From NCBI GenBank assembly GCA_007127095.1, contig SKZY01000018.1:1-45313 (forward strand): 45,313 bases of DNA, read 5' to 3'. The notes under the pieces are model-generated. The model searched no databases. It was not told the DNA's origin and was given only the letters and a program-made list of their open reading frames with translations. Both the position numbers and the translations under genes were made by a program. Below, piece by piece: positions 1,059-37,816 of the stretch. How positions within the stretch are numbered: position 1 is the stretch's first letter; the number at the start of each line of letters is the position of its first letter. The DNA comes from Planctomycetaceae bacterium. Lineage in GTDB: Bacteria > Planctomycetota > Planctomycetia > Pirellulales > Pirellulaceae.

Positions 1059-1072
1059 CCAGATCAGTCAGC
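1054..1072. terminator. Short inverted repeat between convergent genes
   Basis: GCTGAC and GTCAGC form a six-base stem around a seven-base loop exactly where two convergent genes end, and the repeat overlaps both stop codons. It has no T-tract, so it is only a weak candidate for a bidirectional terminator. Confidence 0.25.
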
Positions 1073-1993
1073 TCGCTGGAGTAGACCGCTCAGTAGTTTT
1101 CGCAATTCTCCGAGTTCGTTCTCGGACAGTTTGACCAACGGTGCCCGCACGTGGGCTTCATCGAGCCGTCCGAGCATCACCAGCGATTCTTTCATGCGGT
1201 TGTGCATATCGACCAGCGGTTGACGGTAAAACGCGCAGGTCGTCGGGTAGATTTGATCGTTGATCCGCTGTGCGGTCGCCAGGTCTCCCGCCGAAACGGC
1301 TCGCCAAAGCGCCACGTGCAGGTCCGCGATGACACTACCGGCGCCGGAAAGGATTCCATCGCATCCCATGACGAGTGAACCGAGCAACCAAGCCGAGTGG
1401 GTTGTGAGCACTTTGATTGGCCGGTCGAGAGCATGGAGCATTCGGATTTGGCGCTCGTGCAGTTGCGGGTCTTGGCACCAATCCTTGACCGCTCGGATTG
1501 TCGGAAAACGTTCGCAGAGCATCCGCAGTGTTTCCAATGGGTAGCCGAGTCCGCCGGCGAGTGGGTATTGGAACAGGATCAACGGTAGATCGGTCGCCGC
1601 GGCGATCGCATCGAAATGCGCGATCGCCATCTCGGGACGTGATTGTCCACCGAGCGCGAATACCTCCGACGGAAACACCAGTAACGCATCGGCCCCGCAG
1701 CGAGTCGTCATCCGCGCGATTTCGGCGGCTTGCCGCCAGTTCGACGTAAAAACGCCGGCGATCAAGGCGGTGGAATCACCGACCTCATCCCGGGCGATCG
1801 CCAACCCCCGTCGCTGTTCGTCTAAGCTCAACGCATGCACCTCCGCCGCGTGGCCATTGACCGTGATCGCGGTGACGCCATCGACCTCGCTGAGGTATCG
1901 CAGGTGCTTTCGATAGGCCGGCTCATCGATGCTCAAGTCGGCCGTGAACGGCATCAGGCAGGCGGGGATCACGCCGGCGGGCTCAAAACTCAT
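1064..1993 (-). CDS. DapA/NanA-family Schiff-base aldolase or lyase
   Basis: The protein (about 309 residues) belongs to the dihydrodipicolinate synthase/N-acetylneuraminate lyase superfamily, TIM-barrel enzymes that join or split pyruvate-type adducts through a lysine Schiff base. Visible are the N-terminal PAxxxPF motif, a variant of the GTTGE substrate loop (NGHAAEVHALS), the catalytic tyrosine in FQYP and the Schiff-base lysine in AVKDW. Length fits the family. The substrate cannot be read from sequence: the loop lacks the usual TTGE, so lysine synthesis (dapA proper) is unlikely. The ATG at 1993 (MSFEPAG) is chosen over a TTG at 2056. It starts 83 bases after the synthetase gene on the same strand, so it may be co-transcribed and may make or modify a building block; that is inference. 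Confidence 0.8.
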   Translation of the reverse strand: MSFEPAGVIPACLMPFTADLSIDEPAYRKHLRYLSEVDGVTAITVNGHAAEVHALSLDEQRRGLAIARDEVGDSTALIAGVFTSNWRQAAEIARMTTRCGADALLVFPSEVFALGGQSRPEMAIAHFDAIAAATDLPLILFQYPLAGGLGYPLETLRMLCERFPTIRAVKDWCQDPQLHERQIRMLHALDRPIKVLTTHSAWLLGSLVMGCDGILSGAGSVIADLHVALWRAVSAGDLATAQRINDQIYPTTCAFYRQPLVDMHNRMKESLVMLGRLDEAHVRAPLVKLSENELGELRKLLSGLLQRAD

Positions 1994-2076
1994 CCGAATT
2001 CGCTTTCCGACGAAGGGCGGGGAAAATTGCCGCTCGACATGATACCGGACACGCAAGCGAATCGCCCACCCGGGAT

Positions 2077-5000
2077 TCAGCAGGATACTGAATCGCCGTT
2101 GTTCTGCAGGGTGGCCACCGGAAGTACCGGTGGGGCGATACCGGTTTGTAGGTGCCGATGGAGCAAACGGGCGATCTGCTCGACCGCGGGGCGAGTCAAC
2201 ATATGCGCGTGGTCGCCGGGGACGGATGCCACCTCGACCCGTGGGACCAAAGTCTGCCAGCCCAGCGTTTCGTCATCGAACAAGTCCGCGGTTTTTGCTT
2301 GATCAGCCGGGCGGATCAGCACCAGGGGGCCATCGTGAGGCCCCGTCCGGTGATCGTGGACCGCTTTGATATTGGCTTGAAAGACATCCAGGATATGCGG
2401 ACCGACGGCGGCGGCATTCTCCGGCACGATCCCGGCTTGGCTCGCCTGGGCGATGAAATAGGCGAGTTGTTCTTCTGGCGACTTTTGGCGCAGTGTATCG
2501 AGCGAGTCGTGGCCCTGGTCTGGAAACAGTGCGGCGATCAACGGCAAGAAATCGGCTTCACTCAAATCTTGATCGGCCGAGACGAGTCCGGAATCGAGCA
2601 GGGCCAAGAGGCCGATCTGTCGTCCGCGAGCCGATACTTCGCGGGCCACCTCATAGGCGATATTTCCACCCAGCGACCACCCCACCAGGTTCAGAGGGCC
2701 GACCGGGGCGGCCTGAAGGATTGCCGTCGCGTAATCAGCAGCCATTTCTCGCAGCGTAGCATGCGGCGGTTCGAGGCCATCGATCCCGCGGGCTTGAACG
2801 CCGAAGACCGGTCGCTTGCCGGCGAAATGTGCCGCTAGTTCGCGGTAGCAAAATACGGTTCCGCCGGCCGGGTGGATACAGAACAACGGTGGCGATTCGC
2901 CGCCGGTCGAGAGCGAGACCACGGTCGACGCTTCGGAGTCGCCCCGCCGCAGCAATTCCGCCAACTGTGCAATCGTCGGCTGACGGAACAACGCTGCCAC
3001 CGGCAGGGCTAGCCCGGTCCGCTGCTGCACTCGAGAGACCATCCGCACAGCTAGCATGCTGTGCCCACCGAGTTCGAAGAAGTCGTCGTCGATCCCAACC
3101 GGCGAGATTTCCAACAATTCTTCCCAAACCTCGACCAAACAGGCCTCGATCTCGTTCCGCGGAAGCCGCAGTTCCCCCTCGCCGCCCAACCGCTGTGTCG
3201 GAGGCGGCGGCAGGGCAGACCGATCGAGTTTACCCTGTACCGTCATCGGCAGGCGATCGACGACGACGAATGCCGACGGGACCATGTAGGCTGGCAGCCG
3301 TGACTGCAGTTGCTGACGGAGTCGTTGGGTTAATTGAATCGATTGGCGCCGGACCAGCGGTTGGCTGGTGAATCGGGTCGTGTCTGTTTCCTGCGGTACG
3401 ATCGCCGGCTGATATTCCTGAATCGACAGCGACCGCCGCAATGCCGCCGGAGATAACCGTCGGCCGTCTCGCGTCGCTTGCAACCGGACCGCATCGATCG
3501 CCTCGGGGTGCCAGTCGGCGACCAGCCGAATCCCTTGATTCTCAGCAATCTCGGCCAACGCCGCGGGGGTCGTTGCCGGGGCCAGCGCGGAATCGATGGC
3601 CGCGATGACATCGCCAAGCGGCATCGCGGCGGCGGCGGCTCGCAGCGCCCGATCGAGTCTCACTTCACGATGGACATGGGCGTTGCAGACGGTGACGTTT
3701 GGCGAGCGCGAGCGACGGTGGCTGTCGCTGGGACCGCGATCGAAATGGAGCACGGCGTCGTAACGAAACCGGTTCAATTCGCTGTCACCCGAAGCGGTCT
3801 TGACCTCGACCCGAACCTCTCGCAAACGCGGCAAATGTGGTTTTAAATGAGTGAACAGGTCGGGGGCGACCAGCAATTCTTCGTCGTGCTCCACCCGCGT
3901 CCGTACCCGCCCCAGAAACTGCCCCACCGTCAACGGTTCGTCGCCACAGCGAGGTAACTCCGCGGCGATCGCGAAGGCGCGATGGAGTCGCAGGTCACGG
4001 AGATCACCCAAAAAGATCTTGCCGCCGGGTGCTAGCAACCGCTCGGCTTCGCAGAGCACCCGAACCAGGTAGCGCTGTGAGGGGAAGTATTGCACGACCG
4101 AGTTGAGTACGACTGTATCGAAACCGCTCTCGGGAAGCTCACCGAGTTGGTCCGCGGTGCGGCGAAGCAGTTCGACCTTGCGTTCCAGATCCGGCATTCG
4201 CGACAACGTCTGCCGAAGTTCGGCGAGTGCCGAATCGAGCACATCGACACCGACATAATGTTCGATCGAGTCGGCGATCCGCAGCAACATCAATCCGGTG
4301 CCGCAGCCGATCTCCAACAGGCGGCGTGGTTGGAGGTCACGGATTCGGCCGGCGGCGGCATCGGCCCAGGCCCGCATCTGATCGATCGGGATCGGCCGCC
4401 CGGTGATGACGCTGGACCAACCCGAAAAATTGTCGCGAGGGTCGAACACGACACCGCCTTGCTGCGATTGGTCAAACAACGCCCGCCAATTTTCAACGTG
4501 CTCTGCTTCGACCGGATCTTCGCCGTCTGCCGCATCGATCACGCCGTCGGCCACCGCGGTGGGTAGTTGGGCGGGTTCGGGAACGACATAGGCGACCAAA
4601 CGACGGCCGGTACCATCACCCGACGTGTCATCACCGGCCACCACGACAGCCGAGCGAGCGACATCGGGCAGCGAATCGAGCACCGACGCGATCTCACCCG
4701 GTTCGATTCGGAAGCCGCGCAATTTGACCTGGTCGTCGCAGCGGCCGACGATTTCCAAGAGCCCCCGATGATTCCACCGACCGAGGTCGCCGGTCCGGTA
4801 CATCCGTCGCCCTCGCCCGGCCCGATCGGCTGGCGATAAAAACGGGTCAGGAACGAATCGCTCTGCCGTCAGGTCGGCTCGTCCAAAGTAGCCCCGTCCG
4901 ACGTTCGCGCCGCCGATATAGACTTCACCGATCACACCGTCGGGGACCAAGCGTCGCCGGTCGTCAAGCACATAGACGGCGGTGCCGGGTAGCGGTCGGC

Positions 5001-8000
5001 CGACGGCCGGGGCGACCAAATCGGCCCGTTCCATACGGTGGATCGCGACGCCTACGGTACACTCCGTGGGACCGTAGCCATTGAACAATTGATGGCTGTT
5101 GAGCCACCGCGCCGCCACTTCGGCCGGCAATGCATCACCGGCCGACAGCACACGGCTGACCTGGGGCAATTGCTGGGGTGATAGAACGGCCAACGTAGCC
5201 GGGGTGACCCCGATCACATCGACTCCGCGACGATCGAGGAACTCCGCCAAACGTGGTGGGTCGAACATCAAATCCTGGTCGATCACCTCGAGTACGCCAC
5301 CACAAACCAATGGCGGGAAAATATCGCCTGCCGCCCCGTCAAAACTGGGCGAAAACTGATAGCCGCAACGGTCGCCTACCGTCAATCGCAGTCGTTGGCA
5401 GTAGCCGGCGACAAAGTTGCAGATCGAGCGATGTTCGATCTCCACGCCCTTCGGTTTTCCGGTCGAGCCGCTGGTGAAGATCAAATAGGCGAGGTCGTCG
5501 TCCGCGGTATCGACCGCGACCATTCGCCCCTCATTCGCCATCAGTTGCCGGAGTCCGTGGCAAGGCGCCCGGTCGCCGATCGCTCTGCGAACGTCCGCGA
5601 TCGATTCGTCGACCGCCACGACCATCGCCGGTCGAAGGTCGGTAACGATCTCGACGACGCGGCCGAGCGGAAATTGGGTGTCGATCGGTACGAACGCCGC
5701 ACCACACCGCATCACGGCGATCACCGCGGCGACCTGATCGATCGATCGCGCCGAATAGACGACTACCGAGTCGCCGCGCCGTACACCGTTCAACTGCAGC
5801 CCTCGAGCGATCTCCGCGATCCGACGATCGAGCGCCGCGTAGGTCAGCGTCGTCTCGCCGTGACGGATCGCCGGCAGGTCGGCATGGCGGGCGATCGATT
5901 CGGCGATCCAACCGTGCAACGTTCCCTGCGGCGGCGGACCGCTGGTGGCGTCGGCCGGATGCGCCGCCGGCGAAGGGGCCGTGATCGAACGCTGCAGCAC
6001 CGCACGTTCGGCGTCGGCCGAGACCACCGGCAGTTGATCGATCGGCGTTTCGATATCGGCTAACGCCGCCGTCAGCAGAGTCTGCCAAGCGTCGGCGAAG
6101 CGGGCGATGGTCTGTGGGCGAAACAACGACGTACGAAACTCGAAGTGACCGACCAACATGCCGTCGCGCTCGGCCAACATCAAGGTCAAGTCGTATTTCG
6201 CTGTCCCGTTATCGACCTCGATCGGTGTCAGCTTCAGTCCCTCGGCGGGCGGCGGGATGTCGGGCGTGTTCTGCAAGATCATCGCCGCTTGGAAAAGTGG
6301 CGAATGGCTGCGATCGCGATTGATCGCTAATCGGCTGACCACCTGCTCGAACGGTACGTCTTGATGCTCGAAGGCTTCGGTCGCGGCCTGGTGTACCGAC
6401 CGCACGTACTGCGCAAACGACTCACCACCGACTTGCCGCTGTCGGACGACGACGGTGTTGACAAAGAAACCGATCAATTCCTCGACCAACGGGTCATTGC
6501 GGTTGGCGACCGCCGTTCCGACGCAAACATCGTGCTGGCCCGAAAGGCGACCGAGTAACAACCCATAAGAAGCCATCAGCACCGCATAAGGCGTCACCGC
6601 GAGCGATTCGGCCAGCGTCTTGATCCGGTCGGTCAACTCGCCCGATAGCCGGACCGGAAGGGTTGCACCGGCAAACTCTTGGACGACGGGGCGAGGGTGG
6701 TCCGTCGGCAGATCGATCGTTTCCGGAGCGTCGCGGAGAGCGTCGCGCCAATAATCGATCGTCGGTTCGATCCGCTCCGGTGTCAGCGATTCCGCTTGCC
6801 AGTCAGCATAATCGCGATACGTGGCCGTCAGCGGTCGGGGTGATTCGCCATCGACGGTCGTCGCGGCTCGGTAATGCCGCGTCAATTCGCCCAGCATCAC
6901 CGCCATCGACCAGCCGTCGGAAATGATGTGGTGCATCACCAACAGGATCACATGTTGATCGGGGCCGAGTCGCCAATGGGAGACACGCAGTAACGGACCG
7001 GTGGTCAAGTCGAAAGCCACCTGCGACTGTTCGCCGAGTTCCCGTGCCAAGACCGCTTCGGCGTCGGCATGGCCACTGAGGTCCGACGACCAGCGATCGA
7101 TCGGCATTGTGGCTGAGACCCGTCGAACCGGAGTGCCATCGACGATGTGATAGGTCGACCGCAATGTTTCGTGGCGGGCGACACAGGCATCGACGCTCTG
7201 CCAAAACCGCGGCAGGTCGAGCGGCCCTTCGATCCGGGCCGCCAGCGGCAGGTTGTAAAACGGATGATTCGGCTCGAGTTGATCGACGAACCAGAGTCGC
7301 CCTTCGGCTGGCGAGAGCGTTAAGTTCTCCTCCGGATCGCCGACGATCGAAGCAGGAGCCGCCGAACGGTTGACGAACGCGGCTAGCCCCGAATCGGTCG
7401 CGGCATCGCGTTCCGATTGCTGGTCGACCAACCCGGCTAACTCGGCCACGGTCGGATGCGAGTAGATTTGCCGCAATCGCAGGTCGGCCCCCAAGCGGTC
7501 GCGGATGCGGGCAAACACTTGGGCGGCGAGCAAGGAGTGGCCGCCGAGGTGAAAAAAATGGTCGTCCGACCCGATGCGATCGATTCGCAGCACCTCTCGC
7601 CAAATCTCAGCGATCGCCCGTTCGGTCGCCGTAGCGGGCTCTCGCAACGACCCAGCGACCGACCGTTCATCCCCATGAGTCAAAGCCGAAGCGGCCAAGC
7701 AGCCGTCGGTGGGTAGCCGCCGATAATCAATCTTGCCCGCCGGTGTCGTCGGGATCTTGGTCAATGGAACCAATGCGGCGGGGATCATGTGGCCGGGCAA
7801 CCGCGATTGCAGACGCTCGCGAAGCTCCGCCGGGACGATGACATGATCGGGCAACGGTTGATAAAAGCCGACCAATCGCCGGTCGGTCGACGACAGGTCG
7901 ACGCAGGTCACGGCGGCGGCGGCCACTGCGTCCAGCCGATTGATCTCTGCCTCGATCTCCCCCAACTCGACCCGGTGTCCCCGCAGTTTGACCTGCCGAT

Positions 8001-11000
8001 CGGCCCGCCCGAGAAACTCCAGACCTCCATCACTCCGCCGCCGGACGATATCTCCGGTCCGATACATCCTGCCATGCGCGTCGGTCGCCACGAATCGCTC
8101 AGCCGTCAACGCCGGGCTTCGCCAATAGCCGCGGCCGACCCCGTTGCCGCCGATCCACAATTCGCCAGCGACGTCCGCGGGGACATCACGGCCGGCGGCA
8201 TCGACGATTCGCAGCGTAGTCGAATCGATCGGTGTTCCAAGCAATATCGGTCCCGAATCGACATCGGTGATCTCACCGGCGAGCGACCAGACGGTCGTTT
8301 CGGTCGGTCCGTAGACGTTCCACAGCCGAGCCCCGGTGTCGAGCAGCGTCGCGGCCAAGTCGACGTCGAGCGGTTCACCGCCACACCAGATCGTCTGCTT
8401 CGATTGCGGCCGCCAGCCGCCGGCCAACAACACACGGAGCGACGAGGGAGTCGCCTGGACCACATCGACGTCCTTGGTGGCGAGCCAGCGAGACACGACA
8501 TCGGGATCCTCGGACAGGCTCCGTGGCGTGATCAAACCGGTGGCACCCGTGACGAGTGGTAGGAACAACTCCAAAACCGAGATGTCGAACGACATCGTTG
8601 TCGCTGCCAAGATTCGCTGCCCGGCAGCAAGCCCCGGACGTTCGGCGAACGACCGCAACACGTTCGCTAAGTTGTCGTGACCGATCATCACCCCTTTGGG
8701 CTTGCCGGTCGAACCGGAGGTGTAGATCAGGTACGCCAAATCGGTTGGCGAAACGGCGGGCCGATGATCATCGCCGGTCGCGGCAGGCGACTCGTCCGCG
8801 TTCAAGAGTTCGTCGAAATCGACGTCGGTGAGGAGACACGCCGGTTCGGCGTCAGCGACGATTTCATCCAATCGCTGCTGCGGGTAATCCGGGTCCAATG
8901 GAAGATAAGCCGCGCCGGCCTTCCAGAGGGCCAAAGCGGCAATGATCAATCGTCGCCCACGGCTCAGACGCAGCGCCACGATCTCTCCCGCGACGACGCC
9001 ACGCCGCCGCAGCCGCTGGCAGAGGCGATTCGATTGATCGTCGAGTTGTGCAAACGTCGCCGCACCCTGCTGATCGATGACCGCTACCGAATCAGGGGTA
9101 ATCGCCACACGCTGGGCGAAGAGATCGAGGACCGTCGTGTCGGCGCGACGGAAGGTCCGCGCCCGCTGGGCCACAGCCCGCAGTCGCGCTTCGGTCGGCC
9201 CGCAGATCCGCAAATCACCGGCGGCCACTCGCGGATCGGCGAGCGATTCGTCCAGCAAGGTGACGAGGCCGTCGAGCAGATTCGCGGCCGTCGTCGTGTT
9301 GATCCGCTGCGGATTGAAAGCCACCCCGAGGTCACAACGTGGCTCACAACCCAACCCGTCAAGATCGAGTTGACGCCACTGGCAAATCAACGCCGTGTCG
9401 TAGGCCGCTAGGGTCGAGTAGGCCGACGAAAAGTCGATGCAGCGGGCTTGGCCAAAATTGACCGGCCCCGCGACCGGCGGTTGATGCAAAACCAGGTGCT
9501 GGATCAACGGCAAGCGATCAGCGGACCGCGGCAGCTCGAGCCGATCGATGATTTCGTCCAGCGGCACTTCGCCATGCAGCAAATCGCGTCGCCAAGATCG
9601 GCTAACCGCTCGGACATAATCGACGAACGACATGTCCACGCTTTCCTGGTGACGATACGGCAGCGTGTTGATAAAGCAACCGATCGCGGTTTCCAGTCGA
9701 CTCTGATCGCGCCCCGCGACAGGAACACCCAAGACCAAATCGTCCGACTCCGCATAACGTCTCAGCACCAACGTCCAAGCTGACAACAGAATTTCGAATG
9801 GGGTCACACCCCACTGCCGACCACGTCGCCACAGCGATTGGCCGACCGCCGGGGGCAGCAACAGCGTCTGGAGCTGCGAATCGGGGCGGTCGTCATCGCT
9901 GCCACAACAGGAAACGGCTTCCCCGGCCGCTGGCCCGTGGGCCGAGGCCACCGCCAACGGTGAGTCGGCAGCGACCGCGTGCAATCGATCACGCCAATAC
10001 TCAAGCCGCTGGTCCTGCGACCAGTCGATCATGCCGGCTGGGGTCAACAGTTCGGCGTCACCTACCAAACCGCCGCCGCTGCTCGCTTCCCCGGTCGCCG
10101 ACGAATCGAGCTGACCGTTGTAGGAATTCGCCAAATCACGAACGATCAGCTGTAGTGATGCGGCGTCGCAGATCGCATGGTGGGCGACCAAAATCAACTC
10201 GCTGACATCGCCCGGCAGGTCGATCAACACCGCGTGAAACACCGGGCCATTCTGAAGGTTGAGCGGTTCCCTCACCGCCGCGGAGCGAACGTCGCTCAGC
10301 CGGCCCTCGATCTCGGTCGGATTCTCGGGGCGGAGATCGAGCCGGCGAACGAAAATCGGTGACGTGTCGTTGAACCGTTGTCGGGGGATGCCATCAGCGT
10401 CTGGCCAGATCCGACACCGCAACGCCGCATGGCGTTCCGGTAGCGTGGTGATCAACCGGGCCAGCTGATCCAAGTCGAGTGCCCCGGCGAGTCTCAGTGT
10501 CAGCTCGACATGCAGGAACGCTTGCCGAAGCTCCAACTGGTCGAGCACCCAAAAGCGGCGTTGGGCCGGCGTCAGAGGTACACCATGCAGAGATTCGCTG
10601 AACGGGCTAGCGATCACCCCGCTGGCGGCGAAAAAGGTCGTAGCTGTGCCGTTCGCGATCGTGCCGTTCGCGGTTGCGGCAGCGGAAACGAGATCGGGTT
10701 GATCACCTGCGGCGGGTTCCACGGCCGCTTGGTCAGCGGCCAAGCGACGGACTTCAGCGACCAATTGTCCGAATCTTGGGGCGCGGTACAGCGTTTCGAA
10801 ATCGACGGTGACTCCGATCCGCTCCCGAATTCGCGACAACATCCCGATCGCCGCCAAAGAATGGCCACCGTGATCGAGAAAGTGTTGATCAGCGGAAACC
10901 TGGCCGACAGCGAGCACCTCGCACCATATGCTCTTGATCTGCTGCGCTATTTCGTCGACTGCGGGGCAAAGATCGGTGGCCGGGACGTCGACCGATCCGC

Positions 11001-12906
11001 AGACTTTTCCTTGGGCTGGTGATTCGGGCTGCTGCCGACCATCGACGGCGGACTCGTCGCACAGTTGCCAGCGATGCAGCACGCTCAGCTCGCCAGCGAC
11101 GAACTGCTGGCGGCATTCCGACCGCTGCAATTTGCCGCTGGACGTTTTGGGAAGGCTACCGGCGGCGACCAAGACGACGCAGTCGACCGCCAGGCCAAAA
11201 CGCTCGGCCAGCGTTGCCCGAATGTGTTCGACGAGTGTCGGCAATGGATAGCGTTTGGGGCGGACGACCTCCTGGACCATCACCAGTCGCTCGGCGTCGG
11301 CGGAATCGCTGTCCGCCGGGCCGTCGGCTCGCTCAGTGAACTCGTTGGAAACCGAGAAGGCGACCCCGCCATCGACCTTCAGCGCATCGTGGGTGGCTTG
11401 CACCGCGGCTTCCAATTCATGAGCGAAGTAGTTCTGTCCGGCGATGATGATCAGGTCCTTCAAACGCCCCGACACGAACAACTGGCCGCCGTGCATGAAG
11501 CCGAGGTCGCCGGTCCGCAAGAACGTCTCGACTGGCTCTGTTTGCGAGTCGGCGGTCGCGACCGAAGCGGAAAACGTTGCCGCCGATAGCTCGGGCTGTT
11601 GCCAATATTGATCGGCCACCGCGGGTCCACGAACCCAAATTTCACCAACACGATTGTCGTCGAGCCGCTGGCGGGTTTCGGGGTCGACGATCCGTAATTC
11701 GGTATCGTCGAGCGGAAAGCCACAACCGACGACCGTGATCCGGCGCCGATCGTCGCAGTGGTCGGTCGCGGTGTACTCAGCCGCGGTGCCGTTGTGCAAT
11801 TGGTCGGCGTCGAAGTCGACCGCGACCGGCAGTTCCCCGAGCGGCTTACCGGTGATCGCCAACGTCGCTTCCGCCATCCCGTAGGCGGGAGTGAAGGCCG
11901 ACGGACAAAACCCGCGCGGCGAAAAACGTTCGCTGAACCGCCGCATCGTCGACGCACGGATCGGTTCGGCACCCGAGATCGCCACCCGCAGACTGCTCAG
12001 GTCGAGTGATGCCAATGCGCTATCACTGATCTTGCGGAGGCAGAGTTCGTAGCCGAAGTTCGGACTCGCCGTCGTCGTCCCACGATAACGCGTGATCGCC
12101 TCCAGCCAGGCCAACGGCTGTTGGACGAACGACGTCGGACTCATCAAGACGCTCGGACGTCCGGCGTACATCGGCAACAACAGCCCGCCGACCAACCCCA
12201 TGTCGTGGTAAGGAGGGAGCCAAAAGACGCAGACGGCACCGCGGCCGTGGTAAGCCGAGTAGATCTGACGCGAATTGGAGACCAGGTGCTGGTGCCGCAA
12301 GGCGACCCCTCGTGGCGTCGCCGTGGTGCCCGACGTGTACTGCAGAATCGCCAGGTCGGCGTCGCGGTGACGACGCGACCGAAAGGCATCGGCCAACTCG
12401 GTACCGACCTGATCGGTGCGGATCACCGCTTGACGGCAGAGGTCCCATAGCGGGCTGGCGGACGGCTCACGATCGGCGGAACCGCCCAAAGCCTCGCCGC
12501 TGGTCAGCATGATCGGCGCGTCGGCGTCACGCGTGATCGCTTGCAGTCGCGGCAAGGTGTGGCGGAGCCTGAACACGTCGAGCGGATAGACCGGAACGGC
12601 GACCATCCCCGCGTAGAGGCACGCAAAGAGCGAACAGATGTAATCGATCCCCGGTTGCTGGACGATCAAAACCCGCTGACCCGGCGACCCGCTGTCCGCC
12701 AAGACCGCCGCCAGCGAACGGATACGAAGATCGAGCTCGCCGTAGGTGATCACCTCGGAGCGACCCTCAGCGGGGGTCAGGAACGTGAACGCCACCTGAT
12801 CGGCGATCCGGTCTGCCCGCCACTTTGCGATATCCACGAAAGTCGACAGCCGCGCCGGTGGCGGCAGCTCGATGTAGCTGGGAGGAATGTTGTCAGTGAT
12901 ATCCAT
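2077..12906 (-). CDS. FAAL-loaded two-module NRPS (lipopeptide synthetase)
   Basis: A single protein of about 3,609 residues carries a whole lipopeptide line. Approximate domains from the ATG at 12906: fatty acyl-AMP ligase 10-620 (YTSGTT near 190; LPPYHDMGL and PNFGYELC typical of FAAL); acyl carrier protein with GGHS near 682; condensation 1 775-1195 (HHAICDA near 910); adenylation 1 1255-1730 (YTSGSTGKPKG near 1398); PCP with GGHS near 1790; condensation 2 1860-2290 (HHIISDG near 1996); adenylation 2 from 2325 (FTSGSTGKPKG near 2480), interrupted after its A8 motif by a methyltransferase 2800-3055 (LEIGCGTG near 2869, VVQYFPS, ELNRFRYD); end of adenylation 2 near 3225; PCP near 3282; thioesterase 3340-3600 (GWSLGG serine, GDHAH histidine). 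All core motifs are intact. Family knowledge implies activation of a free fatty acid, two condensations, N-methylation and hydrolytic or cyclising release. Hand-read specificity residues of adenylation 1 (D-I-L-Q-W-G-V-V-W) resemble glycine pockets. A TTG at 12984 would add 26 residues; the ATG is preferred. Confidence 0.95.
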   Translation of the reverse strand: MDITDNIPPSYIELPPPARLSTFVDIAKWRADRIADQVAFTFLTPAEGRSEVITYGELDLRIRSLAAVLADSGSPGQRVLIVQQPGIDYICSLFACLYAGMVAVPVYPLDVFRLRHTLPRLQAITRDADAPIMLTSGEALGGSADREPSASPLWDLCRQAVIRTDQVGTELADAFRSRRHRDADLAILQYTSGTTATPRGVALRHQHLVSNSRQIYSAYHGRGAVCVFWLPPYHDMGLVGGLLLPMYAGRPSVLMSPTSFVQQPLAWLEAITRYRGTTTASPNFGYELCLRKISDSALASLDLSSLRVAISGAEPIRASTMRRFSERFSPRGFCPSAFTPAYGMAEATLAITGKPLGELPVAVDFDADQLHNGTAAEYTATDHCDDRRRITVVGCGFPLDDTELRIVDPETRQRLDDNRVGEIWVRGPAVADQYWQQPELSAATFSASVATADSQTEPVETFLRTGDLGFMHGGQLFVSGRLKDLIIIAGQNYFAHELEAAVQATHDALKVDGGVAFSVSNEFTERADGPADSDSADAERLVMVQEVVRPKRYPLPTLVEHIRATLAERFGLAVDCVVLVAAGSLPKTSSGKLQRSECRQQFVAGELSVLHRWQLCDESAVDGRQQPESPAQGKVCGSVDVPATDLCPAVDEIAQQIKSIWCEVLAVGQVSADQHFLDHGGHSLAAIGMLSRIRERIGVTVDFETLYRAPRFGQLVAEVRRLAADQAAVEPAAGDQPDLVSAAATANGTIANGTATTFFAASGVIASPFSESLHGVPLTPAQRRFWVLDQLELRQAFLHVELTLRLAGALDLDQLARLITTLPERHAALRCRIWPDADGIPRQRFNDTSPIFVRRLDLRPENPTEIEGRLSDVRSAAVREPLNLQNGPVFHAVLIDLPGDVSELILVAHHAICDAASLQLIVRDLANSYNGQLDSSATGEASSGGGLVGDAELLTPAGMIDWSQDQRLEYWRDRLHAVAADSPLAVASAHGPAAGEAVSCCGSDDDRPDSQLQTLLLPPAVGQSLWRRGRQWGVTPFEILLSAWTLVLRRYAESDDLVLGVPVAGRDQSRLETAIGCFINTLPYRHQESVDMSFVDYVRAVSRSWRRDLLHGEVPLDEIIDRLELPRSADRLPLIQHLVLHQPPVAGPVNFGQARCIDFSSAYSTLAAYDTALICQWRQLDLDGLGCEPRCDLGVAFNPQRINTTTAANLLDGLVTLLDESLADPRVAAGDLRICGPTEARLRAVAQRARTFRRADTTVLDLFAQRVAITPDSVAVIDQQGAATFAQLDDQSNRLCQRLRRRGVVAGEIVALRLSRGRRLIIAALALWKAGAAYLPLDPDYPQQRLDEIVADAEPACLLTDVDFDELLNADESPAATGDDHRPAVSPTDLAYLIYTSGSTGKPKGVMIGHDNLANVLRSFAERPGLAAGQRILAATTMSFDISVLELFLPLVTGATGLITPRSLSEDPDVVSRWLATKDVDVVQATPSSLRVLLAGGWRPQSKQTIWCGGEPLDVDLAATLLDTGARLWNVYGPTETTVWSLAGEITDVDSGPILLGTPIDSTTLRIVDAAGRDVPADVAGELWIGGNGVGRGYWRSPALTAERFVATDAHGRMYRTGDIVRRRSDGGLEFLGRADRQVKLRGHRVELGEIEAEINRLDAVAAAAVTCVDLSSTDRRLVGFYQPLPDHVIVPAELRERLQSRLPGHMIPAALVPLTKIPTTPAGKIDYRRLPTDGCLAASALTHGDERSVAGSLREPATATERAIAEIWREVLRIDRIGSDDHFFHLGGHSLLAAQVFARIRDRLGADLRLRQIYSHPTVAELAGLVDQQSERDAATDSGLAAFVNRSAAPASIVGDPEENLTLSPAEGRLWFVDQLEPNHPFYNLPLAARIEGPLDLPRFWQSVDACVARHETLRSTYHIVDGTPVRRVSATMPIDRWSSDLSGHADAEAVLARELGEQSQVAFDLTTGPLLRVSHWRLGPDQHVILLVMHHIISDGWSMAVMLGELTRHYRAATTVDGESPRPLTATYRDYADWQAESLTPERIEPTIDYWRDALRDAPETIDLPTDHPRPVVQEFAGATLPVRLSGELTDRIKTLAESLAVTPYAVLMASYGLLLGRLSGQHDVCVGTAVANRNDPLVEELIGFFVNTVVVRQRQVGGESFAQYVRSVHQAATEAFEHQDVPFEQVVSRLAINRDRSHSPLFQAAMILQNTPDIPPPAEGLKLTPIEVDNGTAKYDLTLMLAERDGMLVGHFEFRTSLFRPQTIARFADAWQTLLTAALADIETPIDQLPVVSADAERAVLQRSITAPSPAAHPADATSGPPPQGTLHGWIAESIARHADLPAIRHGETTLTYAALDRRIAEIARGLQLNGVRRGDSVVVYSARSIDQVAAVIAVMRCGAAFVPIDTQFPLGRVVEIVTDLRPAMVVAVDESIADVRRAIGDRAPCHGLRQLMANEGRMVAVDTADDDLAYLIFTSGSTGKPKGVEIEHRSICNFVAGYCQRLRLTVGDRCGYQFSPSFDGAAGDIFPPLVCGGVLEVIDQDLMFDPPRLAEFLDRRGVDVIGVTPATLAVLSPQQLPQVSRVLSAGDALPAEVAARWLNSHQLFNGYGPTECTVGVAIHRMERADLVAPAVGRPLPGTAVYVLDDRRRLVPDGVIGEVYIGGANVGRGYFGRADLTAERFVPDPFLSPADRAGRGRRMYRTGDLGRWNHRGLLEIVGRCDDQVKLRGFRIEPGEIASVLDSLPDVARSAVVVAGDDTSGDGTGRRLVAYVVPEPAQLPTAVADGVIDAADGEDPVEAEHVENWRALFDQSQQGGVVFDPRDNFSGWSSVITGRPIPIDQMRAWADAAAGRIRDLQPRRLLEIGCGTGLMLLRIADSIEHYVGVDVLDSALAELRQTLSRMPDLERKVELLRRTADQLGELPESGFDTVVLNSVVQYFPSQRYLVRVLCEAERLLAPGGKIFLGDLRDLRLHRAFAIAAELPRCGDEPLTVGQFLGRVRTRVEHDEELLVAPDLFTHLKPHLPRLREVRVEVKTASGDSELNRFRYDAVLHFDRGPSDSHRRSRSPNVTVCNAHVHREVRLDRALRAAAAAMPLGDVIAAIDSALAPATTPAALAEIAENQGIRLVADWHPEAIDAVRLQATRDGRRLSPAALRRSLSIQEYQPAIVPQETDTTRFTSQPLVRRQSIQLTQRLRQQLQSRLPAYMVPSAFVVVDRLPMTVQGKLDRSALPPPPTQRLGGEGELRLPRNEIEACLVEVWEELLEISPVGIDDDFFELGGHSMLAVRMVSRVQQRTGLALPVAALFRQPTIAQLAELLRRGDSEASTVVSLSTGGESPPLFCIHPAGGTVFCYRELAAHFAGKRPVFGVQARGIDGLEPPHATLREMAADYATAILQAAPVGPLNLVGWSLGGNIAYEVAREVSARGRQIGLLALLDSGLVSADQDLSEADFLPLIAALFPDQGHDSLDTLRQKSPEEQLAYFIAQASQAGIVPENAAAVGPHILDVFQANIKAVHDHRTGPHDGPLVLIRPADQAKTADLFDDETLGWQTLVPRVEVASVPGDHAHMLTRPAVEQIARLLHRHLQTGIAPPVLPVATLQNNGDSVSC

Positions 12907-16869: not shown

Positions 16870-18072
16870 ATGAGGATCGCCTATTTCGACTGTTTCAGTG
16901 GTATCAGCGGCGACATGGTGCTGGGCGCCCTAGTCGATCTGGGGGTGCCGTTGGAGCGAATTCAAGCCGGAATCGCCTCGATGGGCCTCGGTCAGGTCCG
17001 CATCGCTGCGGATGTCGTCAAGAAAAAGGGGTTCCGGGCCGTCAAGGTGCATATCGAACACCCGCCGGAGCATGCCCACCGGCATCTTCATCAGATCGAG
17101 GCGATGATCGATGCCGGCTCCGAATTGTCCGACGGGGCGCGGCGGATGGCTAAGCAGATCTTTTCGCTGATCGGCCAGGCCGAGGCGAAGATGCACAACA
17201 CGACGATCGAAAAAGTGCATTTCCATGAGGTCGGCGCGATCGATTCGATCGCCGACATTGTCGGTGCCGCGATCGGCTTCGACGCCTTGTCGATCGACCG
17301 GTTCGAGGCTTCACCTGTGCCGACCGGATGTGGCAGCGTCAAAATCGCTCACGGGCTCGTTTCGGTCCCCGCGCCGGCAACCGCCGAACTGCTCTGCGGG
17401 ATCCCGATCGCCACCAGTCACATCCGTCACGAATTGACGACGCCGACCGGCGCCGCGATTCTCAAAGCGACTGTCAAACGTTTCGGACCGCTACCGGCGA
17501 TGCGGCTCGAAGCGGTCGGCTACGGCGCCGGAACGATCGACCTCGACGAACAAGCCAACGTACTCCGGATCGCCCTCGGTACCGCTGCGGATGACGGTGT
17601 CGCCGCTGAGTCGGAGGAGACGATCCCCTCGGAGTTCGATCGGGTCGTGTTGATCGAAACGAACCTCGATGATTGCTCACCGGAAGATGTGGCGGCTTGC
17701 GTCGCTAAACTCTTCGCCGCAGGAGCCTTGGATGTCTATCAAACGCCTTGCCTGATGAAGAAAGGCCGTGCGGGGATCGAGTTGACCGTGATCGCGTCAC
17801 CCCACGGGGCCGGGCGACTCGAACAGATCGTGCTGGCACATACGACGACGATCGGTGTCCGCCGCTACCTCGCCGACCGTCGAAAGTTGCTCCGTCGCGA
17901 AGTCAAATTGCAAACGCCGCAGGGTGAATTGAGGGCTAAGGCGGTTCAGGTCGGCGGCGGCCGTGAGCGGATGATGTTGGAGTACGATGACGCCTTGGAT
18001 GCCGCTGATAAGTGGCAGCTGAGTATCGCCGAAGTCCGCCAATTGGCGGCGACCGCTTGGTCCGCCGGTTGA
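16870..18072 (+). CDS. larC: Nickel-pincer cofactor biosynthesis protein LarC
   Basis: LarC inserts nickel into the pyridinium-dithiocarboxylate mononucleotide precursor using CTP, completing the nickel-pincer cofactor of lactate racemase and related racemases/epimerases. The protein (400 residues) is full length for the family (formerly DUF111): the N-terminal FDCFSGISGDM, the histidine-rich HPPEHAHRHLHQIEAM, the VHFHEVGAIDSI motif, LTTPTGAAIL, and the C-terminal LarC2 part with ETNLDDCSPE and LMKKGRAG. In Lactobacillus plantarum LarC1 and LarC2 are joined by a programmed frameshift; here they are one continuous frame. GGGAG sits a few bases before the ATG. LarA, LarB and LarE are not in this window. 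Confidence 0.93.
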   Translation: MRIAYFDCFSGISGDMVLGALVDLGVPLERIQAGIASMGLGQVRIAADVVKKKGFRAVKVHIEHPPEHAHRHLHQIEAMIDAGSELSDGARRMAKQIFSLIGQAEAKMHNTTIEKVHFHEVGAIDSIADIVGAAIGFDALSIDRFEASPVPTGCGSVKIAHGLVSVPAPATAELLCGIPIATSHIRHELTTPTGAAILKATVKRFGPLPAMRLEAVGYGAGTIDLDEQANVLRIALGTAADDGVAAESEETIPSEFDRVVLIETNLDDCSPEDVAACVAKLFAAGALDVYQTPCLMKKGRAGIELTVIASPHGAGRLEQIVLAHTTTIGVRRYLADRRKLLRREVKLQTPQGELRAKAVQVGGGRERMMLEYDDALDAADKWQLSIAEVRQLAATAWSAG

Positions 18073-32872: not shown

Positions 32873-34225
32873 ATGATCCCAGACCTGCTGCTGCATACCA
32901 AGGTCATCTCGATCGTCGGCGATATTTTGACGGTCCGCGCTCTCGACGTTGGATTGGGAGAATTGGCGGTCGTCGAAGGCGGCGAAGACGAATCTTCGCT
33001 CGCTCAAGTTACCGAAATCAGCGAAGATCGCGTCTCGCTACAGGTCTTCACCGGCGGCAAAGGCTTGACCACCGACGCCCGCGTCCGGTTCCTCGGCCAC
33101 CCCACCCAAGTCGCCTATTCGCCGAATATCCTCGGCCGGATTTTCAACGGGGTAGGACAACCGATCGACGGCGGCCCAGAACTCTCCGACCAACCACGGA
33201 TCGATATCGGTGGCCCCTCGGTCAACCCGACGTTACGGATCGTGCCCAAACACATGATCGAGACCAAGGTCCCGATGATCGATGTGTTCAATTGCCTGGT
33301 CGAAAGCCAGAAAATCCCGATTTTTTCGATCGCTGGCGAGCCATACAATAAGCTGCTGGCTCGCGTCGGAATCCAAGCCGACGCCGATATCGTCGTGTTT
33401 TGCGGACTCGGCTTGATCTTCGATGAGTTTCATTTCTTCCGCACGATGTTTGAAGACGAGGGGATGCTGCCGCGGACTGTGATGTTCGCCAACCTCGCCT
33501 CGGATCCGATCGTCGAACGCTTGATGGCCCCCGATCTGGCATTGAAGGTCGCCGAACGTTTCGCCGTCGAGGAGGGCAAACGCGTTTTGGTTTTGATCTC
33601 CGATATGACCGCCTTTGCCGACGCTTTGAAAGAGATCGGCGTGGCGATGGAACGGGTCCCTTCCAACCGCGGCTACATGGGGGACCTCTACAGCCAACTC
33701 GCGTCTCGGTACGAGCGGGCTTGTGACTACAAAGGTGCCGGTTCGGTTACTCTGTTAGCCGTGACGACGATGCCGGGCAACGACGTCACGCACCCCGTCC
33801 CCGATAACACCGGCTATATCACCGAGGGACAGTTCTATCTGCATAACGGAATGATCGATCCCTTCGGCTCGCTCTCGCGACTCAAACAACAGGTCGTCGG
33901 GACGGTCACGCGGGAAGACCATCCGCAAGTGATGAATACGATGATCCGGCTCTTCTCCGGGGCTCGCGACGCACAGAAAAAGCAACAGATGGCTTTCGAC
34001 CTGTCACCTTTTGATGACAAGTTGTTGAAGTTCGGCGAGCTGTTCACCAAACGGTTCATGGACATCGACGTCTCGATGACGCTCAACGAGGCGTTGGACG
34101 CCTGCTGGCAGACGATGGCCGAATGCTTCGAACCCCAGGAATTGCTGATGCGGGATCAACTGATCGAGCGTTACTATCCCAAAGGCGTCAACCGGGGTGT
34201 GAGCGATGTCAGTCGCACTCAATAA
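32873..34225 (+). CDS. ntpB: V/A-type ATPase subunit B
   Basis: This is the non-catalytic nucleotide-binding subunit of the A3B3 head. The protein (450 residues) shows the family pattern throughout: GRIFNGVGQPIDGGP, NPTLRIVPKHMIETKVPMIDVFNCLVESQKIPIFS, FDEFHFFRTMFEDEG, VPSNRGYMGDLYSQLASRYERA, TMPGNDVTHPVPDNTGYITEGQFYL and SLSRLKQQVVG. As expected for B, the P-loop is replaced (FSIAGEPYNKL). It is the first gene of the operon; the next gene (D) overlaps its end by 20 bases. The promoter must lie in the 134 bases shared with moaA. Confidence 0.96.
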   Translation: MIPDLLLHTKVISIVGDILTVRALDVGLGELAVVEGGEDESSLAQVTEISEDRVSLQVFTGGKGLTTDARVRFLGHPTQVAYSPNILGRIFNGVGQPIDGGPELSDQPRIDIGGPSVNPTLRIVPKHMIETKVPMIDVFNCLVESQKIPIFSIAGEPYNKLLARVGIQADADIVVFCGLGLIFDEFHFFRTMFEDEGMLPRTVMFANLASDPIVERLMAPDLALKVAERFAVEEGKRVLVLISDMTAFADALKEIGVAMERVPSNRGYMGDLYSQLASRYERACDYKGAGSVTLLAVTTMPGNDVTHPVPDNTGYITEGQFYLHNGMIDPFGSLSRLKQQVVGTVTREDHPQVMNTMIRLFSGARDAQKKQQMAFDLSPFDDKLLKFGELFTKRFMDIDVSMTLNEALDACWQTMAECFEPQELLMRDQLIERYYPKGVNRGVSDVSRTQ

Positions 34226-34811
34226 GACCTCGCTTAAACAGCAGCGTGATCAGGCGAAGACGTTCAAGCAATTCCTCCCTTCGCTCGATCTCAAACGGCA
34301 ACAGTTGCTAGCGGCCCTGAAAGCCGCCCGCAAGGAACTCGATCGAGTCGAAAACGAGATTTCGGCATTGCATGTCGGTCTCGATCCGCTCTACCCACTG
34401 CTCGGCAGCACGACGATCCCGACCGTGAAGGTATCGCGGTTGGTGCATGTGAAAAGCGTCCAGATCGAATCGGAGAACGTCGTCGGTACCCGTCTGCCGG
34501 TGGTCCGTGAGATCGAATTTCAGATCGAACCTTACTCCACCCTAGCGACGCCGTTCTGGGTTGACCATTTGATCGATTCCTTGCAGCGACTAGCCCGTTT
34601 GAGGGTCGAGCACGAAGTCGGAAAAAAACGGGTCGAGATGTTGGCGTTGGCCGCCCGCCGAATCACGCAGCGGGTCAACCTGTTCGAAAAGGTACTGATC
34701 CCACAGGCCGAGCAGAATATCCGCCGTATCGTCATTTTTCTCTCCGACCAGGAACGGGCCGCGGTGGTCCGATCCAAGATTTCGAAAAGCAAGCACTCGG
34801 CTGACGCCTGA
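34206..34811 (+). CDS. ntpD: V/A-type ATPase subunit D (central stalk)
   Basis: Subunit D is the rotor shaft inside the A3B3 head. The protein (201 residues) is of normal length and is built from two long helices: an N-terminal one with LNKTSLKQQRDQAKTFKQFLPSLDLKRQQLL and a C-terminal one with RRITQRVNLFEKVLIPQAEQNIRRIVIFLSDQERAAVVRSKISK, the hallmark of the family. The ATG lies inside the end of the B gene, so translation is probably coupled. No F subunit gene follows, although F normally pairs with D. Confidence 0.95.
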   Translation: MSVALNKTSLKQQRDQAKTFKQFLPSLDLKRQQLLAALKAARKELDRVENEISALHVGLDPLYPLLGSTTIPTVKVSRLVHVKSVQIESENVVGTRLPVVREIEFQIEPYSTLATPFWVDHLIDSLQRLARLRVEHEVGKKRVEMLALAARRITQRVNLFEKVLIPQAEQNIRRIVIFLSDQERAAVVRSKISKSKHSADA

Positions 34812-34827
34812 CCCGGTCGCCTCGCTC

Positions 34828-36690
34828 ATGGCCATTGTTAAATTATCAAAAGTCACCCTGTTGGGGTGCCAGGATCAGCGGGACGAGGTCCTCCGCGGCT
34901 TGCAGTCGTTGGGATGCCTTCACCTGGTCGATTTGCACGGGGCGATCAAGGCGGAGCAGTGGGAAGATCAGGCACGAAGCGAGGTCCACGACGCGATCAA
35001 GTATCTGGCGGCCTGTCCCGATCAACGCCCCGCGGCCACTCACGATTCCGAGTACGACCGAGTTCGGGTGACCAGGCGGACGCTGATCAACCGGCGGGCT
35101 CACGAAGACTTGCTCGAAGAACGTGAGAAGTTGACCCGGGCGATCGCGGCGACCGCCCCTTGGGGTGATTTTCGCATCCCCGACCCCGAAACGCTCGGCG
35201 GTTTACAACTCTGGCTCTATCGAATCCGCCACCGCGACGTCGAACAACTCGTCGGTTCGGAGTTTCCCTGGGAAATCGTCTCCAGTACCAGTCGTTACGA
35301 CCACGTCGTGGTGATCAGCCGCCAGCAGCCGATCGGGGTCCCGGGGCGACCGGTGAAGCTCGATCCACGTTCCCGCAGCGAACTCCGGGAACGGCTCGAA
35401 GAGGTCGATCGGTTGCTCGAACGACTCGACCTCGAACGGATCTCGCTGACCCGCTGGATCGGTCGCCTTTCGGCTGACATGCAAGTGGCCGATGACGACC
35501 GCCGGTTGGGTGTCGCCGCCGATCACATGCTGAACGAGGGTCCGATTTTCGCCCTGCGAGGCTGGGCACCAGAATCGACCTTGCCCGAACTTGAGCGGTT
35601 TGCCAAACAGCACCGATTGGCGTTGACCATCGATCCGCCCGAGCTGACCGACTCGCCGCCGACGCTGCTGAAGAACCCGACCGCGGTCGCCGGCGCCGAG
35701 GGGGCAGTGACGTTTTACATGACCCCGAGCTATTCGGCTTGGGATCCGACCTGGCTGATGTACGGCTCGTTCTCGCTGTTTTTCGCCATGATCATGGCAG
35801 ACGCCGGCTACGGGATCCTGCTGGCCATCGTCTTGGCGGCGTTTTGGGGCAGACTCGAAAGCTCTGAGAACGGTCGTCGGATGCGCGGGCTGTTGATCGC
35901 CATCGTCGCCATGACCATCGGCTACGGCGTCTTGATCGGCAGTTATTTTGGCTCCGCGCCACCGACCGGCTCGCTGCCCGACCTGCTGGTCTGGAAACGA
36001 GGCGACAGCTCGATCATGAACGACCAGCCGTCGATGATGCTGCTGGCCGCCGCGATCGGCGTCTTTCATTTGATGATCGCCAATTTGATCAGCGGTTGGA
36101 ATCGGCTCGGCAGTTCACGCGCCTTGGGCTACGTCGGTTGGGCCGTGGCGCTGCTCGGCGGCCTGGTGATGGCGATCGCCAAACTCCGCGAACCGCCGCT
36201 GGTGGGCTGGCTGGCCGAAAAACTCGGCACCGCTGCCGAGACGCTCGGCGGGTCGTTGTGGCAATTCGGCATCGCCGGACTGGCGACCGGCCTCGGGCTG
36301 GTGTTTCTGTTCTCCAGCGACCGTCCGTTCTTTTCGTCACGGCCGCAGGATTGGTTGTGGCGTCCACTCGAAGGGCTGATGGGGCTGACGAATATCTCAA
36401 AAGCGTTCGGCGATTCGCTGAGCTACCTCAGGTTGTTCGCGCTTGGGCTGGCGAGTGCGAAATTGGCCGTTACCTTTAATGGTTTGGCCGCTGACGCGAT
36501 GGAAATCTCGGGGGTCGGAATCTTGGTCGGGTCGTTGATCTTTCTCGCCGGTCACGCGTTGAACCTCGCGCTCGGGATCGTCGGCGGCGTCGTCCACGGC
36601 TTACGTTTGAACTGCATCGAATTTTTTAGTTGGTCCCTGACGGACGAGGGATATCCGTTTCGCGCATTTTGCAAAAAGGCAGATCGTTGA
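34828..36690 (+). CDS. ntpI: V/A-type ATPase subunit I (membrane subunit a)
   Basis: The protein (620 residues) is the stator membrane subunit with the ion half-channels. The N-terminal half (to about residue 300) is soluble and rich in charged helices; the C-terminal half has about seven membrane segments, starting near SAWDPTWLMYGSFSLFFAMIMADAGYGILLAIVL. Helix 7 keeps the essential arginine in SLSYLRLFALGLASAKLA, and the end HGLRLNCIEFFSWSLTDEGYPFRAF matches the family. Its stop codon overlaps the ATG of the K gene as TGATG, indicating translational coupling. Confidence 0.95.
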   Translation: MAIVKLSKVTLLGCQDQRDEVLRGLQSLGCLHLVDLHGAIKAEQWEDQARSEVHDAIKYLAACPDQRPAATHDSEYDRVRVTRRTLINRRAHEDLLEEREKLTRAIAATAPWGDFRIPDPETLGGLQLWLYRIRHRDVEQLVGSEFPWEIVSSTSRYDHVVVISRQQPIGVPGRPVKLDPRSRSELRERLEEVDRLLERLDLERISLTRWIGRLSADMQVADDDRRLGVAADHMLNEGPIFALRGWAPESTLPELERFAKQHRLALTIDPPELTDSPPTLLKNPTAVAGAEGAVTFYMTPSYSAWDPTWLMYGSFSLFFAMIMADAGYGILLAIVLAAFWGRLESSENGRRMRGLLIAIVAMTIGYGVLIGSYFGSAPPTGSLPDLLVWKRGDSSIMNDQPSMMLLAAAIGVFHLMIANLISGWNRLGSSRALGYVGWAVALLGGLVMAIAKLREPPLVGWLAEKLGTAAETLGGSLWQFGIAGLATGLGLVFLFSSDRPFFSSRPQDWLWRPLEGLMGLTNISKAFGDSLSYLRLFALGLASAKLAVTFNGLAADAMEISGVGILVGSLIFLAGHALNLALGIVGGVVHGLRLNCIEFFSWSLTDEGYPFRAFCKKADR

Positions 36691-37163
36691 TGGGTGATTC
36701 ATTTTGGCTGATGCTCGGTTGGGCCGGCATCTATGCCCCGCTCGCGTTGGGGGCGATCGGCAGTATTCTCGGTTGTAGCGCCGCCGGTCAGGCTGCCTGC
36801 GGAGCGATGCTGGACGTCGAGTCGGGTTACGGCCGACTGGTCGGGTTGTCGGCATTGCCGTCATCCCAAACGATTTATGGCATCGTCGTCATGCTGTCGC
36901 TCAACCGTGAGGTCAGCGTGACATCGGCGCCCGGGCTGTTCGCCATCGGCGTGCTCTGCGGCGTCGCGCTGCTCTTCAGCGGTTGGTACCAGGGCAAGTG
37001 TTGTGCTTCGGCGGTCCACGCGACCAAGAACAAGCCCGAAATCTTCGGTCTCTCCGCCGCCCCGGCTGCGATCGTCGAAGGCTTCGCCGTGTTCGCGTTC
37101 ATTTTTGCCCTGATCGTCGCTGGCGGGTTGCCCGAGGCGGCAGCCGTTGTGGGAGTAGGCTGA
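36690..37163 (+). CDS. ntpK: V/A-type ATPase proteolipid subunit K
   Basis: Subunit K forms the rotor ring that carries the ions. The protein (157 residues) has four hydrophobic helices, a fused double hairpin of the NtpK size. Helix 2 has LPSSQTIYG, helix 3 ends SGWYQGK and helix 4 has AIVEGFAVF; these line up with the Leu61, Thr64, Gln65, Gln110 and Glu139 that bind Na+ in Enterococcus hirae NtpK, with Ser in place of Thr64. Only the second hairpin carries the carboxylate. Na+ transport is therefore plausible but inferred. The ATG is chosen because it overlaps the I stop as TGATG; an in-frame GTG/ATG-like start at 36630 lies inside the I gene. Confidence 0.93.
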   Translation: MGDSFWLMLGWAGIYAPLALGAIGSILGCSAAGQAACGAMLDVESGYGRLVGLSALPSSQTIYGIVVMLSLNREVSVTSAPGLFAIGVLCGVALLFSGWYQGKCCASAVHATKNKPEIFGLSAAPAAIVEGFAVFAFIFALIVAGGLPEAAAVVGVG

Positions 37164-37170
37164 GTTTACC

Positions 37171-37803: not shown

Positions 37804-37816
37804 GCGGCGCCGTATC

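Follow-up and report, generated by a model that had tools for sequence, protein, structure and literature searches.

Does the long reading frame that occupies almost a quarter of this planctomycete contig encode, on its own, a complete enzyme for the loading, extension, methylation and release of a fatty acyl dipeptide, and how does it relate to the assembly lines of other planctomycetes? The window (the whole stretch of DNA analysed, 45,313 nucleotides) is the entire contig C409 of a draft genome (G000) that comprises 475 contigs and is 95.57% complete. We consider it probable (roughly 0.7) that the gene specifies a complete lipodipeptide synthetase yielding N-acyl-Gly-(N-methyl)X and that it arose by fusion from a two-gene line found in Pirellulales, a reading in which we infer the substrates, the site of methylation, the mode of release, the role of docking and the order of the steps.

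Domain organisation of the synthetase

The preliminary description placed the gene at 2077-12906 without naming a strand. These coordinates are correct and the strand is minus: translation from an ATG at 12906 to the stop at 2077 gives 3609 codons with no internal stop, and the plus strand across the same interval contains many stops. The open frame reaches upstream as far as a TTG at 12984, with the FAAL beginning directly after the ATG at 12906. Pfam detects AMP-binding (three copies), Condensation (two), PP-binding (three), and single AMP-binding_C, methyltransferase and Thioesterase domains in the protein. The best E-value per family ranges from 1.6e-13 to 3e-217, so these domain matches are not due to chance. 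They bear out the order FAAL-ACP-C-A-PCP-C-A(MT)-PCP-TE in one frame that had been described, and the observation of a single-gene line is confirmed (Table 1). The C-A-PCP order with its catalytic motifs, as seen by Pfam and alignment, identifies the protein as a type I modular NRPS.

Table 1. Positions of the synthetase gene, its domains and the adjoining gene in the window
Feature	Position	Strand	Basis
NRPS gene, 3609 aa	2077..12906	minus	open frame and Pfam
FAAL loading domain	11077..12843	minus	solved-chain matches; A10 Lys present
ACP, serine motif DHGGHSL (approximate limits)	10747..10989	minus	PP-binding match, aligned motif
Condensation domain 1, HHAICDA	9448..10581	minus	PF00668, 180 bits
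Adenylation domain 1, pocket D-I-L-Q-W-G-V-V-W	7702..9120	minus	PF00501 and PF13193; code by alignment
PCP1, LGGHSL (approximate limits)	7417..7674	minus	PP-binding
Fusion-point linker between halves (approximate limits)	7330..7416	minus	lacks end motifs of split relatives
Condensation domain 2, HHIISDG	6004..7329	minus	PF00668, 341 bits
Adenylation domain 2, main part, pocket D-G-G-G-L-A-G-V-G	4570..5919	minus	PF00501, code alignment, predicted fold
MT between a8 and a9 of A2, SAM motif LEIGCGTG (approximate limits)	3577..4569	minus	Methyltransf_12
A2 C-terminal part, a9 LPAYMVP and a10 QGKLDR	3187..3369	minus	translation, alignments
PCP2	2950..3138	minus	PF00550, residues 3257-3319
Type I thioesterase	2152..2892	minus	PF00975; 7crn 103.6 bits; motifs
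DHDPS-family gene	1064..2056	minus	PF00701, 119 bits

In alignments, the FAAL carries motifs A3, A4 and A10, the carrier serines are present in all three carrier domains, and HHxxxD is found in both condensation domains. A1 and A2 each have motifs A3, A4, A5 and A10, with A6 seen in A1 and A7/A8 in A2. The C1 motif departs from the textbook HHxxxDG at its last residue; it keeps the second His and the Asp, and relatives end this motif in either DA or DG. At the end of the line, PF00975, the motifs and the Ser-Asp spacing define a type I thioesterase with a Ser-Asp-His triad, formed by the Ser of GWSLGG, an Asp 27 residues after it and the His of GDHAHM. The core motifs had been described as intact: every active-site motif checked by alignment was found.

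The N-terminal region matches the solved chains 7r7f (424 bits) and 3kxw (349 bits), both of which we take to be FAALs. Against named AMP ligases it scores approximately 306-307 bits (FadD32) and 236 bits (FadD28), versus at most 74 bits against CoA ligases, although it falls short of the NCBIfam FAAL cut-offs (at best 548.9 of 775 bits). Solved-chain scores and Pfam thus characterise it as a FAAL rather than an acyl-CoA ligase, followed by an ACP. The FAAL loading that had been proposed is supported at this level by the difference between AMP-ligase and CoA-ligase scores and by the ACP behind the domain. The remark that no phosphopantetheinyl transferase was in view does not extend to the genome, which encodes one on another contig, C273 (246 aa; PF01648 and PF22624). 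Its length and make-up are Sfp-like, and we read it as a putative Sfp-type enzyme. An AcpS-like PPTase of 128 aa is encoded on contig C429.

Translation and alignment place the MT behind a8 and ahead of a9 and a10 of A2. With the SAM motif and the a10 Lys both present, this is an interrupted A domain of the a8/a9 type, as the preliminary description had it. The MT region alone matches chain 5wmm of TioS at 157.1 bits, the next solved chain following at 33.3 bits; no chain named KtzH is among its 27 solved matches. A predicted structure of A2-MT (mean pLDDT 87.0, pTM 0.83) has 5wmm as its top Foldseek match (E 1.3e-79, 945 columns). VIA-align matched 803 residues of the model to 5wmm (Z 49.7, rmsd 6.9); 43 entries, mostly uninterrupted A domains, exceed this Z over fewer residues. 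In the table of a review (PMC11355689), N-methylation is included in five of the six a8/a9 insertions, the KtzH insertion being listed as O-methylating only. Since TioS is the nearest solved relative and five of the six tabulated rows N-methylate, yet KtzH O-methylates, N-methylation of X by the embedded MT is likely and no firmer than that. The earlier claim of an N-methylated second residue is supported as far as the kinship with TioS in sequence and fold goes, and is tempered by the capacity of an a8/a9 insertion to O-methylate (KtzH, PMC11355689).

The A1 pocket conforms to DILQxGxxW in all 18 A1 sequences read, a set without that of G038. We take the DILQ-type pocket to be a glycine-type code, and on this code the A1 residue is probably glycine. 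The A2 pocket, DGGGLAGVG in the window, reads DGG(A/S)LAG(V/I)G in three genomes of the same genus (G128, G088 and G038); the A2 of a further one, G113, lies outside its contig, leaving four readable genomes in the genus. We know of no code that DGGGLAGVG matches.

Beyond the gene itself, the window holds a V/A-type ATPase gene cluster at 32873-40334 (ATP-synt_ab, ATP-synt_D and V_ATPase_I models), within which a 210-aa protein has no Pfam match at 1e-5. A nickel insertion protein is encoded at 16870-18072 (PF01969, LarC-like, 440 bits), and a 358-aa protein at 41860-42936 has no Pfam or NCBIfam match and appears glycosyltransferase-like by eye. The product of the DHDPS-family gene matches seven NCBIfam models, in each case below the curated cut-off. 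Contig C42 of the same genome carries a second lipid-type line (L007:5165-18800), in which a FAAL-ACP protein of 736 aa is encoded beside a PKS-NRPS of 3817 aa; the latter ends in a C domain and has no thioesterase by Pfam.

Fused and split forms in Pirellulales

A search of 149 genomes of the family found at least 15 that hold the line (the best places and six others were inspected). Five belong to the genus of the window (G000, G038, G088, G113 and G128) and the rest to other genera (G091, G045, G055, G103, G072, G006, G032, G115, G140 and G008). A search of the class (397 genomes of at least 85% completeness) with the second half of the protein at E 1e-220, a threshold that weaker relatives fall below, matched 10 genomes. 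Eight hold the line: G000, G038, G006, G072 and G055, together with G217, G230 and G425 of another family in the order. Of the remaining two, G267 carries a look-alike single gene, and G253 was set aside as a different, longer line. In the family search another six NRPS places were rejected for their other domain orders; the nearest of these, in G004, is a single 3622-aa frame of PCP-C-A-PCP-C-A-PCP-TE in which a FAAL is matched weakly (24%, 65 bits) and an MT is absent. Scanning named genomes with the whole NRPS protein gave no match. Named loci were found by alignment of the MT region, and among the best 80 of the matches a thioesterase more than 50% identical to that of the window occurs in R. 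solitaria (L064), HKST-UBA33 (L072) and UBA6163 (L089), all planctomycetes.

All five genomes of the genus among the 149 searched are consistent with a single gene. No break interrupts the frame at the PCP1-C2 junction in G000, G113, G128 and G038; in G088 it is spread over two contigs, with an eight-residue overlap between their ends at that junction. N gaps lie beyond the junction in G113 and G128, and contig ends cut the genes of G113 and G038. In 13 other genomes the line is split between gene 1 (FAAL-ACP-C-A-PCP), which stops after PCP1, and gene 2 (C-A-MT-PCP-TE), which begins ahead of C2. The two halves are approximately 0.58, 0.60 and 0.30 Mb apart in G103, G072 and G006, respectively, which form one genus, assuming circular single contigs. 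A further single-gene form occurs in G267, from another Pirellulales family: FAAL-ACP-C-A-PCP-C-A(MT)-PCP-TE in one frame of 3590 aa (L160:1811-12583), with the A2 code DACTIVGIG. Both carrier-to-C linkers of this protein are identical over 65 residues, which suggests either that part of the gene was duplicated internally not long ago or that the assembly is at fault. Judged by these comparisons, the window's gene is a fused member of a line that is common to several Pirellulales genera and elsewhere consists of two genes.

Three other traits vary with gene structure. The A2 pocket has Lys at its fourth position (DGSK) in 13 of 13 split lines, versus none of the four readable genomes of the fused genus; we presume this Lys to be that of Asp/Asn codes. 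Because the pocket codes of fused and split forms are unlike, X of the fused forms probably differs from X of the split forms. A flavin monooxygenase-like gene lies between the NRPS genes or adjoins gene 1 in 12 of the 13 split lines, G032 being the exception. It matches Pyr_redox_3, with 4usq as its best solved chain (50 bits) followed by several oxygenases and reductases at approximately 33 bits, and all of its NCBIfam matches are far below cut-off. At E 1e-10 no relative was detected in the five genomes of the fused genus, G032 or G267; as the former are drafts of 78-99% completeness, the absence is not certain for each genome. G032 combines a split line and the pocket Lys with the lack of a monooxygenase, which indicates that the traits are not perfectly tied. 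In G115 the monooxygenase is broken over two frames (L054:9778-11553), by a frameshift or an assembly error, and second relatives of the enzyme lie away from the NRPS genes in G008 (C211:5646-7121, 48% identical to the query) and G103 (C1:865777-867255, 47% identical to it).

The third trait concerns the ends of the split genes, which were scored with equal patterns in split ends and fused linkers. A head helix, P-x-(K/Q)-R-(A/L)-x-L-E, opens gene 2 in every one of the 13 split lines and is present in none of six fused linkers. At the tail of gene 1, a loose LSD(E/D/S)-like motif is found in 12 of 13 split lines (not in G217) versus one of six fused linkers (G128), and a strict pattern in 11 of 13 versus none of six. 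With G217 lacking the motif and the G128 linker fitting its loose form, the tail motif is weak evidence. The linker of the window's gene has neither motif. The ends of the split genes presumably resemble known NRPS ends, and by this analogy we describe them as docking-like.

Unrooted trees of the two halves (half 1 without G038, half 2 without G113) sort the genomes into the same three groups: the fused genus; G103/G072/G006 with G055/G140/G115/G091/G045; and G032, G008 and G267 with G217/G230/G425. SH-aLRT is 99-100 in both trees for the fused genus, for G103/G072/G006, for the group from G055 to G045 and for G217/G230/G425. The trees disagree inside the group of G032, G008 and G267 and on the order within the fused genus, where the nearest sequence to that of the window is G088 in half 1 and G038 in half 2. 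Common descent alone would also lead one to expect such agreement of the half-trees.

Fused forms sit in two places in each half-tree. It is conceivable, if unlikely, that the single gene is ancestral and that the two-gene lines with their monooxygenase arose by fission: a single-gene line is also present in the other family (G267), and the half-2 tree, when built without outgroups, has its midpoint root beside the fused genus. A tree of A2-MT rooted with 42 modules from other bacteria (out of 62) argues otherwise. Its 58 rows include 15 line members, whose A2-MT modules group together in a single clade (SH-aLRT 100). Within this clade the outermost position is taken by the split G032 and the fused genus is nested further in; the A2-MT of G267 falls beyond the clade. 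This is one quick tree with SH-aLRT as its sole support measure; 31 of the 58 rows are unlike in composition, and the branching beside the fused genus is left open. The rooted tree favours fusion as the derived state and G267 as a separate case.

Proposed product and alternative readings

The colinearity argument for a fatty acyl dipeptide, put forward in the preliminary description, is supported by the domain order. In the synthesis that we propose, carriers would be activated by the PPTase from the other contig, and the FAAL would adenylate a free fatty acid and load it onto the ACP. C1 would then transfer the acyl chain to the PCP1-bound residue, which is probably glycine, and C2 would join acyl-Gly to X on PCP2, with the MT inside A2 methylating the amine of X. 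Cleavage by the thioesterase would give N-acyl-Gly-(N-methyl)X in its acid form, or a cyclic product where a free hydroxyl or amine is available on X or on the fatty acid; a diketopiperazine is an unlikely product, since the amine of the glycine would carry the acyl chain. Fusion in this genus would have accompanied the loss of the docking-like ends, the lack of a partner flavin monooxygenase and the altered A2 pocket.

Three further readings compete with this one. The MT might instead O-methylate the side chain of X, leaving the backbone nitrogen alone, in an otherwise identical line. The O-methylating KtzH has its MT at a8/a9 as well (PMC11355689), and the lack of a chain of that name among the solved matches means that the two kinds are not comparable there; with the N-methylating TioS as the sole strong solved relative and the majority of tabulated a8/a9 rows including N-methylation (PMC11355689), we think O-methylation improbable. 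Slightly less probable still is a partner in trans, either the C42 line or the DHDPS-family gene, which would lead to a larger product or a special residue. C42 does encode a FAAL-ACP plus KS-AT-DH-ER-KR-ACP-C-A-PCP-C, and the DHDPS-family gene is less than 100 bp downstream on the same strand, but the window's line has loading and release domains of its own. Moreover, the DHDPS-family gene does not adjoin the NRPS in G128, G038, G088 or L089 and is probably not a member of the pathway. Finally, the Ala in place of Gly at the end of the C1 motif could hint at a decaying gene that is open by chance; this is very hard to reconcile with 3609 stop-free codons, the presence of the checked catalytic motifs and relatives in the genus that are 56-62% identical in protein sequence, with no stop in the matched frames.

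Our preferred reading, a complete N-acyl-Gly-(N-methyl)X synthetase derived by fusion, may have a wider form, which we advance tentatively, giving it somewhat less than even odds. One conserved line may produce, across Pirellulales, a lipodipeptide that has yet to be described; one genus would have fused this line, replacing docking, dropping the monooxygenase and re-tuning the second A domain; in another genus, halves approximately 0.3-0.6 Mb apart would still cooperate.

Comparison with known systems

Few planctomycete products are available for comparison. Only a handful of characterised ones are named in a 2026 paper (PMC13241502), which includes the stieleriacines, N-acyl tyrosines of Stieleria, as planctomycete lipo-amino acids and potential biosurfactants. 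In the 2025 paper on stieleriacine biosynthesis (PMC12479983), a search by words yields neither a FAAL nor an AMP ligase, and NRPS appears in the reference list only. Predicted clusters of four planctomycete isolates are reported to be less than 10% similar to antiSMASH references (PMC8303584), and 'two small NRPSs' have been noted in Rhodopirellula baltica (Donadio 2007, via PMC4982196); an identification of these with the two halves of the split line was considered and dropped. No description of the present line was found in the titles, abstract openings and selected passages covered by our literature search. The component parts are all known; what is new is the order-wide line, its natural fusion and its unlinked halves. 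The gene offers a small, concrete target, as a single 11-kb gene for expression with a split form in a named isolate (R. solitaria CA85), and the natural occurrence of a single two-module line in fused, adjacent and unlinked form lends itself to tests of NRPS subunit pairing and fusion tolerance.

As a type I NRPS, the enzyme appears to work like known FAAL lipopeptide lines, with a predicted product that we assign to no described one. Closest among solved structures, by MT sequence and by Foldseek, is module 4 of the thiocoraline synthetase TioS (5wmm), which like A2-MT is an A domain with an MT between a8 and a9 and is 33-37% identical to it. TioS, however, belongs to an actinomycete line that is longer and has no FAAL loading. 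The columbamide line shares the FAAL start and a short, lipid-like product, and differs in being a multi-gene cyanobacterial pathway with another mode of release. Its ColG has a methylating A domain interrupted at a8/a9, as here, with two methylations in one A domain (PMC11355689). Among planctomycetes, the split line of R. solitaria CA85 has the same domain order over two genes, a DILQ-type A1 code, an MT in A2 and a thioesterase, and its first and second halves are 37% and 46% identical, respectively, to those of the window's gene; it is distinguished by its two genes with docking-like ends, the flavin monooxygenase gene between them and the A2 pocket Lys. The line of G267 has the same one-frame domain order as the window's gene and differs from it in A2 code and in the position of its A2-MT outside the clade.
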